A stretch of DNA of 64,000 nucleotides from the NCBI GenBank assembly GCA_023823795.1, contig CP085710.1:4552001-4616000 (forward strand), in the 5' to 3' direction. Every line of letters starts with the position of its first letter. Positions within the stretch are counted from its first letter, which is position 1. The position numbers and the translations under genes are program-made. Below are positions 19,744-45,479 of this stretch, one piece after another. This stretch comes from Bacillus sp. F19 (lineage in GTDB: Bacteria > Bacillota > Bacilli > Bacillales > Bacillaceae). Under the pieces are notes generated by a model, which made no database searches, had not been told where the DNA came from, and saw only the letters and a program-made list of their open reading frames with translations.

Positions 19744-19861
19744 TGAACTACTACCCGAATAATGGACACTTATTAAAAGTGCCCCATATTCGGGTTTTTC
19801 TATGTCTAAACATGTTTAACCCGTTTATAATTAAAATATTAATTTGAACGGAGATTCCTAA

Positions 19862-20290
19862 ATGAGTAAAAAATTGTTTACTGAAACCCAAATAAATGAG
19901 TTAGTTATAAATCCTAATGTATCGCATGCATCCGACCGTTCCATAACGTATTTACCAGCCTTTAAGGTCAGAGCTGTTCAAGAGTATCACACTGGTAAGG
20001 GGCCTTCTCAGATTTTTATTGAGCATGGATTTGACTTGGATATCATAGGAAAAAAACAACCGAAACGATGTCTTCAACGCTGGCGTAAGACGTTTGAACA
20101 GTTTGGAGAGGATGGTCTGCAAGATGATCGCAGGGGCAAGGCTAGTACTGGCCGTACAAGTTCAAGAGAGTTATCAGTCGAAGAAAAACTGAAAAAAGCT
20201 GAGGCTAGGATTAAATATCTTGAAACAGAGAATGAATTTTTAAAAAAGCTAGAAGAACTCGAGAGGCAGGCGCTGAAGAAAAGACGTTAA
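19862..20290 (+). CDS. IS3-family OrfA (transposase N-terminal DNA-binding protein)
   Basis: 142 residues with helix-turn-helix regions (TYLPAFKVRAVQEYHTGKGP and CLQRWRKTFEQFGEDGLQDDRRG) and a C-terminal leucine-zipper-like coiled coil (KAEARIKYLETENEFLKKLEELERQ), as usual in IS150-type OrfA. An AAAAAAG stretch near the end (about 20243-20249) is a candidate -1 programmed frameshift site joining OrfA to OrfB, which is known for the family. Confidence 0.85.
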   Translation: MSKKLFTETQINELVINPNVSHASDRSITYLPAFKVRAVQEYHTGKGPSQIFIEHGFDLDIIGKKQPKRCLQRWRKTFEQFGEDGLQDDRRGKASTGRTSSRELSVEEKLKKAEARIKYLETENEFLKKLEELERQALKKRR

Positions 20291-20325
20291 AAGCAGCAAA
20301 GAAATTTCAACTTATCGAGAGAAGC

Positions 20326-21188
20326 TTGAAGGAGCATCACACACAGGGGCATGTATCTTATTTCTGTCAGCTTGCCGGAGTAAGCAGAAGCGGTTTCTAC
20401 GCTTGGTTAAAGTCAGATAATAAACGACAAGCGAGAGAAGATTCTGATGATCAGGAAAGTCATCTAATCAGAGAAATATTCCGTATCCATAAAGGGCGTA
20501 CTGGCGCATTGTCCATTAAAATGATTTTGGAAAATGATTTTGGTGTTATCATGAATCACAAAAAAATTAGAAGGCTTATGAAAAGTACGATCTCAACACA
20601 AGAATTCGAAGAGCTAATCCTTATCGGAAGATGACGAAGGCAACACAAGAACATCGAACGTGTAAAAATATCGTAAACCGCAAGTTTGATCAAGGAGAGC
20701 CAGGAAAAGTACTGTTAACCGACATTACCTATCTCTATTACGGAAAGGGTCAGAAATCTTATTTGTCATGTGTAAAAGACGGAGCTACCAAAGAAATCTT
20801 AGCGTACCACTTATCAACTTCTTTAGAAATGGATATCGTTTATCAGACGTTAAGAAAGCTCGCAAAATCTACAGAACTGTTTCATCCTGAAGCCATTCTA
20901 CATTCAGACCAAGGCGTTCACTACACTCATCCTCTGTTCCAAAATAAAGTGAAAGATCTAGGTCTCATGCAATCTATGTCCCGAAAGGGAAAATGTTGGG
21001 ATAACGCTCCAATGGAATCTTTCTTTGGCCATTTTAAAGATCATGTTCATCATAGAGCATGTGAAAATCTTCAGCAGTTAACAAAAGAGGTTGATCAATT
21101 TATCGAAGTCTATAACCATCATCGCTATCAATGGGGACTAAAGAAAATGACCCCGGCTCAATACCGAGGACACTTACTAGCTGCTTAG
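20326..21188 (+). pseudogene. IS3-family OrfB (DDE transposase), frameshifted
   Basis: The catalytic part is intact in two pieces. The first frame (to about 20634) has VSYFCQLAGVSRSGFYAWLK and IRRLMKS; the second frame has LLTDITYL, ILHSDQGVHYTH and NAPMESFFGHFK, giving the DDE triad of the rve core. The correct reading KKIRRLMKKYDLNTRIRRANPYRKM is recovered if one A is added in the A-run after CTTATG at about 20580. The element is therefore probably immobile unless this is a sequencing error. Confidence 0.8.
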
Positions 21189-21229
21189 GCACTTTTTATT
21201 TCACTGTCCATTTTAAAGGGTACAGTTCA

Positions 21230-43456: not shown

Positions 43457-43894
43457 ATGTTTGAAATAAAACAAATTGAAGCAGAACATACATACATCTT
43501 AAGACAAAAGGTACTTATGCCTGATCACGCTACCCAGGAATGCGGATATACCCGTGATAAAAAGAAAGAAACACTCCACATTGGCGCTTTTAAGGAAGAA
43601 AAGCTAATTGGAACAGCATCTTTTTTCAAGGAAACACATGAAATACTTAAGCAGAAAAACGGCTACCGTATGCGTGGACTTGCAATCGATCCAGATCACC
43701 GCAATCAGCTACGCGGGCAGACTTTGTTATTATTCGCTGAAAATAAACTTACCCAGCTGGATGCATCAATGCTTTGGTGCACAACAAGCGTGAATAATGT
43801 TGAGTACTATCAGCACTTGGGATTCAAAGAAACGGATCACCGGTTTCACTTGCCTTCTAAAGGGCTTAATGTTTTGATGGTTAAACCATTGTAG
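43457..43894 (+). CDS. GNAT-family N-acetyltransferase
   Basis: 145 residues. The acetyl-CoA-binding region is YRMRGLAIDPDHRNQLRGQTLLLFAENKL, followed by MLWCTTSVNNVEYYQHLGFKETD, the characteristic GNAT motif A and B strands. The substrate is unknown. GTGAGGG precedes the ATG. The stop codon TAG runs directly into the terminator hairpin that has become the target duplication of the IS1182-type element. Confidence 0.85.
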   Translation: MFEIKQIEAEHTYILRQKVLMPDHATQECGYTRDKKKETLHIGAFKEEKLIGTASFFKETHEILKQKNGYRMRGLAIDPDHRNQLRGQTLLLFAENKLTQLDASMLWCTTSVNNVEYYQHLGFKETDHRFHLPSKGLNVLMVKPL

Positions 43895-43912
43895 AACCGC
43901 CTCTGGCGGTTT
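43894..43912 (+). repeat. Left 19-bp target duplication (terminator hairpin)
   Basis: GAACCGCCTCTGGCGGTTT: an AACCGCC/GGCGGTT hairpin, the natural terminator stem of the GNAT gene. Identical copy at 45456-45474. Confidence 0.85.
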
Positions 43913-45455
43913 CAGATTGTAGACAAAAGGCATTCGGATGAACTCTATCCGAATGCTTTTTGTCATTTCTAGGGCTAATTTGATGTTTGTAGGCCTATTC
44001 GTTGACTATTTTTATACCGCTTTCGCTGGCTTCCATGTCCAGGATGCCAACTTTTTCAAGTTCATGGCAGCAAAAGTAAGCATCGCCTGCATGGACAATT
44101 TTTTGAGTCCTCTCAACGTTGTCCAACGCATACCATGCTTTTCTTTTGCATCTGCAAAGACACGCTCTATCGTTTCTTTACGTTTTGCATAAATTGTTTT
44201 GTTCTCTTCTGTATGACGAAGGTGTTCAGCTTCATCTAAGTATTCTTGCCAGAGATGCCTTTCAATCAATTTCTGATGATTTTGGCTCTCCGTACATTGG
44301 CTTAGGAATGGGCAATTTTCACAAACCTTCGGATCGGAAGAGTATTGTCTGTATCCTTTTTTCGTAGTAGTTCTGTAAGGAAGCACTTGATCGTGCGGGC
44401 ATATGTAACAATCAAAATGTTCGTCGTACACATAATCACTTTTCTTGAAAAATCCATCTTTTGTTTTTGGCCGTGTATAAGGAAAAACCGGACGAATTTC
44501 TTTTTCGTTCAAATAGTGAGCAAGAGCAGGGTTCTTGTAAGCAGCATCGGCAGCAACAGCAGCAGGTTTCTTGTGAAGCTCAGTTACTTGATCAGTAGAG
44601 GCTCGAATATTGCACTGTCGTGCACGTTACCAGGCGTAACGATTGTCCCCAGAACAAATCCTTTTTCGTCAGAGGCTGCGTGAAATGAGTAAGCGAACTG
44701 TTTTGTTCTTTCATCTTTTACGTAATAGCCACTTTCCGGATCCGTCGTACTTTCTTTAATCTCTTTCTCTTCCGGTTCAAATTTATCTGGGGAAAAGGCT
44801 TTTTCCGTTTTCTTCGCGGTCTAGATTGAGTTCGTTTTGGAGCCTTTCCTCATATGATTTCGTTTCTTTTCGTACGATTTTTTTTCTGATACTTTCGTTT
44901 ATTAGCACTAGCCTTTACGTGAGTTGAATCAATAAATACCTGTTCTCCATTGACCAGTTTCTTATCAATCGCCTCTTTTAAGATGCGGTAAAATATCTGC
45001 TCAAACAGATCTGTATCCTTAAAGCGCCGTTCATAGTTTTTACCGAATGTTGAGAAGTGGGGCACCTTGTCATGAAAACCAAAACCCAAAAACCAACGGT
45101 AGGCTAAGTTGGTTTCAATCTCTTCAATGGTTCTTCTCATGGATCGAATACCGAAAAGGTATTGGATGAAGGTCATTTTAATCAATATGACCGGATCAAT
45201 ACTTGGACGACCTCGATCTGCGGAATAGACTTTCTCTACTAATGGATAGATGAAAGAAAAATCGAGAGCTTGTTCAATTTTACGGACTAAGTGATCTTCC
45301 GGCACCAACTGTTCAAGTGTAATCATTTCTAGTTGATCGCGATTCATTTGATTATTTTTAGACAACATCCAAATCACCTCTGTATTGTTCTATTTTCATT
45401 ATATAAAAAAACTGCCGACAAATCCCCCAAAAAGGGGGGATTTGTCGACAGTCTG
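43913..45455 (-). mobile_element. IS1182-family insertion sequence, 1543 bp, degenerate
   Basis: Ends are inverted repeats: left CAGATTGTAGACAAAAGG, right (reverse complement) CAGACTGTCGACAAATCC. Each end also holds a hairpin (GCATTCGGAT.../ATCCGAATGC at 43932-43958; CAAATCCCCC/GGGGGGATTTG at 45419-45445). Flanked by a 19-bp direct repeat that is itself a terminator palindrome. Confidence 0.85.
44012..45377 (-). pseudogene. IS1182-family transposase, several frameshifts
   Basis: The N-terminal part (45377-44850) is intact: MNRDQLEMITLEQLVPEDHLVRKI, FSTFGKNYERRFKDTDLFEQIF, VNGEQVFIDSTHVKASANKRK (with the first catalytic Asp). The middle (about 44850-44520) is scrambled by at least two to three frame changes but still shows GKWLLRKR-type and AAVAADAAYKNP pieces. 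The C-terminal part (44512-44012) carries YICPHDQVLPYRTTTKKGYRQYSS, CENCPFLSQC and KETIERVFADAKEKHGMRWTTLRG. Not functional. Confidence 0.85.
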
Positions 45456-45479
45456 GAACCGCCTCTGGCGGTTTTTTTA
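45456..45479 (+). terminator. Right copy of the duplicated terminator, with T-run
   Basis: GAACCGCCTCTGGCGGTTT followed by TTTT; this is the complete original GNAT terminator, now 1.5 kb away from its gene. Confidence 0.8.

Follow-up and report, generated by a model that had tools for sequence, protein, structure and literature searches.

Whole-hairpin target duplications flank an IS1182-family insertion sequence of Bacillus sp. F19 and its relatives among the Firmicutes

DDE transposases usually leave a target duplication whose length is fixed by the enzyme, and the IS1182 family comprises insertion sequences (ISs) of about 1.3-1.95 kb that are bounded by terminal inverted repeats. The closest described systems are two members of this family, IS1272 and TnSha1, which, according to the accessible portions of two reports (PMC5678879, PMC4923244), have as their targets hairpins of varied sequence; for TnSha1, insertion occurs in both orientations and several of the hairpin targets have been confirmed as terminators by RNA-seq. 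The same portions describe no target duplication for either element, the hairpin being lost wholly or partly, record non-hairpin targets for some IS1272 copies, and refer to Siguier et al. for the use of palindromic targets by some members of the family. The model drawn for IS1272 includes alternatives in which the whole stem-loop is duplicated by joining at the 5′ feet (pathway b) or in which only the loop is duplicated (pathway c) (PMC5678879, Fig. 13), and the accessible part of that paper names no element that follows either one. Elsewhere, a Paracoccus IS1182 element is described with a 4-bp repeat (PMC3281130), and one survey, again as far as its accessible portion goes, counts IS1182 as one of ten families that are enriched between converging genes (PMC9208149). 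Palindromic intergenic targets are also used by ISPpu9 and similar elements, which enter repeated extragenic palindromes (PMC8450116, PMC1525189, accessible portions); those targets are defined repeated sequences, in contrast to the 150 different hairpin sequences found here. Hairpin targeting by the IS1182 family is already published; a description of whole-hairpin duplication was not found in the literature searched, and ISfinder may record cases.

The window analysed here, a 64,000-nucleotide stretch (C1:4552001-4616000) of the 5.59-Mb genome of Bacillus sp. F19, contains a 1543-bp IS at 43913-45455 with its transposase on the minus strand. This copy is defective, the transposase being represented by an N-terminal fragment with a DUF772 domain (44850-45377) and a C-terminal fragment with a DDE_Tnp_1_6 domain (44012-44512), both recognised as minus-strand ORFs with a domain match and lying in separate frames. 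Its 15-base terminal inverted repeats are CAGATTGTAGACAAA on the side of the transposase 3′ end (43913-43927) and TTTGTCGACAGTCTG on the side of the transposase start (45441-45455), which differ at two positions when written as the inverted pair CAGATTGTAGACAAA / CAGACTGTCGACAAA. Directly adjoining these ends are two copies of a 19-bp hairpin, GAACCGCCTCTGGCGGTTT, at 43894-43912 and 45456-45474, which form an exact pair, as the initial annotation had reported; with up to two mismatches tolerated, the sequence occurs exactly twice in the window, against a mean of 0.00 in 100 shuffles. To the left lies a GNAT acetyltransferase gene on the plus strand (43457-43894; an ORF with a Pfam Acetyltransf_1 match at 9.2e-11), whose own terminator hairpin was the target, the last base of its TAG stop codon (43892-43894) being the first base of the left hairpin copy.

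Both 19-bp copies fold at -7.6 kcal/mol with DNA parameters (z -4.45 and -6.88), and a terminator-like score is assigned to the right copy only, which is followed by a T-tract (45472-45478); the left copy, which is unlisted, has lost this tract and is now followed by the IS. Immediately within the left IS end is a further hairpin (43930-43956), followed on each strand by T-rich DNA, with TTTTTG coming next on the plus strand and a terminator-like pattern on the minus strand. The region that holds it (43925-43966) folds at -12.2 kcal/mol (z -6.13), and this internal hairpin might substitute for the terminator function that the GNAT gene would have lost at the left copy. At the other end of the IS, a long hairpin (45409-45454) includes the right terminal repeat.

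The genome contains 13 full copies of the IS, one split copy and fragments. The full copies are 1539-1545 bp long, the 12 outside the window being 99-100% identical to the one within it, and every one of the 13 is flanked by a whole-hairpin direct repeat, which is what the initial annotation had suggested looking for. These repeats are 19-29 bp in length, differ in sequence at each copy, and are exact in 12 cases, with a single mismatch in the thirteenth (L007). In the split copy (L015, L014, L377, L378; C1:2737662-2774662), the halves lie ~37 kb apart, with outer 27-bp hairpins that are identical and intact, the gap representing an insertion or a rearrangement through the IS. Five copies were found of a 159-bp transposase-less element (MITE) whose ends are related, and all five lie between hairpin duplications of 20-28 bp. 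An open transposase frame of 459 codons is present in only two of the 13 copies (L007 and L009), and the alignment of all 13 (L001-L013), in which 27 of 1547 columns vary, reveals frame lesions in common, including one 2-bp deletion present in six full copies. Because such lesions are common to several copies, it is probable that broken elements were mobilised in trans, unless the lesion passed between copies by gene conversion.

Assignment to the IS1182 family, as the initial annotation had it, is borne out by the intact sister copy L009, which scores 483.7 bits with the NCBIfam IS1182 model (NF033551) against a cut-off of 270, a value also exceeded by 10 representatives that include distant relatives. 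The copies in this genome agree with the family in their length, terminal repeats and palindromic targets, and share hairpin targets with IS1272 and TnSha1. They are set apart from the hairpin-replacing IS1272 type by the presence of a hairpin on both sides of all 13 full copies: the whole hairpin is duplicated here, whereas it is lost there, a contrast in which IS1272 is represented by its description in the accessible portions of the reports cited above. The family had also been called known for palindromic target duplications, which holds for the palindromic targets cited in those portions, but not for IS1272 and TnSha1, which delete hairpin DNA.

To find empty sites, the flanks of seven of the 13 sites were joined with one hairpin and queried against relatives. 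All seven sites tried have an orthologous counterpart in the sister species (G045) that lacks the IS and contains a single hairpin, at 84-98% identity, the match for the window site covering bases 2-388 of 420. At the window site and at L011, the hairpin of the sister species matches the duplicated one exactly; at the other five sites it carries substitutions or small indels. For L003, the alignment contains one hairpin and an automatic core count gave two, which most likely reflects a near-palindromic core counted on both strands; further full-length weak matches to this site in G050 (73%) and G049 (69%) were left out of the counts. The joined flanks of a copy on an S. simulans plasmid matched six staphylococcal plasmids over at least 80% of the query, and the two examined, from S. 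agnetis and S. simulans, are IS-free at the site and carry one hairpin. For a site on a Peribacillus plasmid, no IS-free relative covering the query was found.

The survey of relatives drew on the family (81 genomes), the phylum (398 genomes) and named genome records (80 loci), the loci surveyed being part of the matches listed and their transposases 41-80% identical to that of L009. Of 204 distinct loci with proposed ends, 29 whose automatically chosen ends were not IS-like were set aside, leaving 175 with recognisable IS ends and 164 with both flanks readable; 8 + 27 loci without ends (contig edges, truncations and distant relatives) stand outside the counts, including L208, L215, L225 and L244, which do have flanks. 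Among the matches listed, a direct repeat of at least 12 bp flanks 151 of the 164 elements, own copies and relatives together. These repeats are 13-42 bp long (median 24) and represent 150 distinct sequences, and they occur at all levels of relatedness: 18/18 for the own copies and the MITE, 50/55 at 60-80% identity, 25/31 at 50-60% and 58/60 at 40-50%. A hairpin adjoins the left end in 157/168 cases, the right end in 163/171 and both ends in 152/164, as against 38 of 1879 random positions (2%) in the outer parts of those loci. The centre of the repeat coincides with the hairpin axis (offset 0) in 141 of 151 elements, and the repeats have a self-complementarity of 0.82, compared with 0.26 for length-matched random segments. 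Hosts of elements with whole-hairpin repeats include, among others, Bacillus, Neobacillus, Cytobacillus, Exiguobacterium, Sporosarcina, Enterococcus, Tetragenococcus and Lachnospiraceae. Three copies in G101 (L268, which is the same copy as L161, together with L269 and L270), which were among the 29 set aside because their ends had been missed by the script, fit the pattern by boundary comparison.

The 13 elements of the 164 that lack a repeat of at least 12 bp are of several kinds. In two (L054, L224), both flanks contain the complete hairpin, with a shifted edge, and six (L086, L154, L216, L237, L247, L249) have an inverted repeat that differs between the two sides, as would be expected if two copies had recombined. 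A hairpin is present on one side only in L050 and L150, and L069, L125 and L227 are odd, L227 from E. avium having a 7-bp repeat only; these five do not fit cleanly with whole-hairpin duplication. A stricter count of 151/166 is obtained by adding L149 and L219, IS-like loci without a repeat that were dropped by the filter and are probably true elements. At the level of sequence comparison, the loci surveyed demonstrate duplication of whole hairpins of unrelated sequence and variable length, centred on the axis, with the same pattern in the MITE; we regard this as a genuine behaviour of a known IS family, both general and well defined.

Among named elements, ISEfa7, an IS1182-like element of Enterococcus faecium plasmids, has 57-58% identical transposases and the end CAGACTGTAGACAA in common with the present element. 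Relatives of ISEfa7 carry whole-hairpin repeats in E. mundtii (L223) and E. avium (L226), the edge being shifted in L224. ISEfa7-like copies in three E. faecium plasmid records, which represent two distinct sites, have no intact repeat: the inverted repeats on the two sides of L380 differ from each other, whereas L381 and L382, at one site, have a hairpin on one side only. Those staphylococcal IS1182-family plasmid elements that we take to be of the IS1272/TnSha1 kind share 24-25% identity with L009 across 39-48% of its length, and one of them scores 442.5 bits with the IS1182 model.

More distant clades, at about 22-37% identity, leave short duplications. At nine of 17 such sites, the duplicated segment is a loop flanked by arms with at least 9 of 12 positions paired, as against 0.7% in a control for which, by contrast with the data, the repeat length was not scanned. 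Examples are the 8-bp loops of L288, L284 and L071 and the 4-bp centres of L272-L274; the other eight sites (L271, L286, L287, L336, L337, L343, L345, L346) have weak arms. In the distant IS1182-like clade of G234 (L351-L354), 4-bp repeats are accompanied by arms pairing at fewer than 9 of 12 positions in 4/4 cases, with no clear target hairpin. A quick tree of ORFs chosen by HMM places the 30 sampled transposases of whole-hairpin elements on one side of a branch with SH-aLRT 94, with the loop-duplicating L071 and L272 as neighbours; deeper placement is unsure, the branches being long. Pathway b of the IS1272 model (PMC5678879, Fig. 13, accessible portion) corresponds to the pattern of the present clade, and pathway c matches some of the distant ones. 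Bacillus sp. F19 itself carries a second, distant IS1182-like gene (L310, L379; C1:1329220-1330674), an open frame of 513 codons that is 39% identical to the loop-duplicating L288 type, for which ends were not found.

With regard to mechanism, it is likely, judging from the comparisons above, that in this IS1182 clade a DDE transposase picks hairpin-forming targets and joins the element at their 5′ feet, with gap repair duplicating the hairpin. The enzyme would select a target by its hairpin-forming potential and not by its sequence, and the two 3′ ends of the IS would be joined at the 5′ foot of the hairpin, one per strand, at points symmetrical about the axis, after which gap repair would yield the whole hairpin on both flanks. 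The transposase may encounter a cruciform after its extrusion, or a hairpin formed while the DNA is transiently single-stranded, its cuts would resemble the resolution of a four-way junction, and terminators would be hit as the commonest strong intergenic hairpins. Joining at the edge of the loop would result in loop duplication, and joining at the 3′ feet in loss of the hairpin. A broader reading, that IS1182 transposases read an extruded hairpin and that clades are split by the site of joining (5′ feet, loop edge with 4 or 8 bp, or 3′ feet), has in our estimation an even chance of being right. The same balance applies to its allocation of clades, in which the 5′ feet would be used by the Firmicutes-wide clade, the loop by the L071, L272 and L288 groups, and the 3′ feet, on the literature, by IS1272. 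Were the split by joining site to be true, the three outcomes drawn for one element would be real, heritable variants of one mechanism.

Several other explanations can be set against selection of the hairpin itself. The 151 sites have biased edges, with A at 89% for the first base inside and at 74-81% for the three bases outside, followed by purine, a bias that matches what would be expected for terminators with A/T tracts. A transposase that read a symmetrical sequence cue, an A-tract running into purine or GC on each strand, in place of the fold would account for this bias, and hairpins would then be seen because terminators have such edges on both strands. We consider such a cue quite unlikely, since the two edges lie anywhere from 13 to 42 bp apart and yet are centred on the axis in 141 of the 151, since hairpins that are tract-poor or GC-rich are used where the host has them (L278, L279, L160, L268), and since some related clades duplicate the loop, away from those edges. 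At many sites, A-T pairing is able to extend past the repeat, so the cut site is not just the foot of the longest stem that could form. The 150 distinct targets and the symmetry about the axis are consistent with target use that would depend on the pairing of the arms and not on sequence.

Targeting could also be coupled to termination, the site being marked by a paused RNA polymerase, a nascent RNA hairpin or an R-loop. For this speak the 3′ end of an ORF of at least 80 aa within 30 nt on at least one side at 14 of the 18 own sites, the presence of at least six T after, or A before, the hairpin in the better 8-nt flank at 111 of 151 sites, and the over-representation of IS1182 between converging genes (PMC9208149, accessible portion). 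Such coupling nonetheless seems to us doubtful, given the weaker tracts (five or fewer) in the remaining 40 sites and a repeat that is symmetrical about the axis though termination is directional. A special terminator signal is not needed, as tract-poor hairpins are used, and what is recognised seems to be the hairpin as such; the initial annotation's terminators as landing sites are supported, 'hairpin' being the better description once the tract-poor and GC-rich targets are included. Random insertion with survival only in terminators is very improbable: selection would favour intergenic sites, but it is unable to set the ends of a duplication at hairpin edges, and the hairpin-adjoining ends (93-95% of IS ends, as against 2% of random flank positions) together with the centring on the axis led us to reject it. 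Also rejected, as having next to no probability, is the reading of the 19-bp repeat as part of the IS, which its position against both ends would allow. None of the other full copies has this repeat at its ends, each carrying one of its own, and in the sister species the IS-free site contains a single copy of this hairpin. Since the repeats differ between copies and the IS-free sites carry one hairpin, the repeat belongs to the target and not to the IS, as first proposed.

Returning to selection of the hairpin, its relation to genes can be followed at the 18 own sites, none of which is spanned by an ORF of at least 100 aa; an ORF ends 1-14 nt within the hairpin at four of them (L001, L002, L012, L034). 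The proposal that such landing sites spare genes agrees with this, and the sparing may be a simple consequence of shape preference: of the 21 perfect hairpins with stems of at least 8 in the window, 14 lie mainly outside ORFs of at least 100 aa (two of these 14 inside the IS), so a pure preference for shape would already steer the IS from genes. Both where the element inserts and how long the duplication is appear to be dictated by the way the target folds. If this is true, these elements would be a natural, sequence-independent reporter of hairpins that fold or are accessible in living cells, a role for cruciforms in vivo would become testable, and the multiplication of the IS with little damage to genes would be explained. 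Whole-hairpin repeats also make it easy to define the boundaries of these elements, and of the small elements related to them, in genome sequences.

Two further insertions were observed in this genome. An IS3/IS150-type element in the window (19744-21229; rve domain 20697-20996), with the ends TGAACTACTACCC and GGGTACAGTTCA and a TTTT repeat (3-4 bp), sits in the loop of the terminator ACGGCC[TTTTATGA]GGCCGTTTTTTT. The initial annotation had paired it with the IS1182-family element as two unrelated ISs landing in terminators; its location is confirmed, but its 3-4-bp repeat indicates a different mechanism and it is a single case. At C1:4250276-4251998 (L016, L017, L376), the hairpin at the end of a truncated IS1182 copy contains a 1.7-kb segment whose inverted ends, TATGGAAACGATTC, are near-perfect and which is flanked by a 13-bp palindromic direct repeat, CCCCAAAAAGGGG. 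The sole ORF of at least 150 aa in the 1.5 kb listed for this segment encodes a 403-aa UTP-glucose-1-phosphate uridylyltransferase-like protein (Pfam UDPGP).
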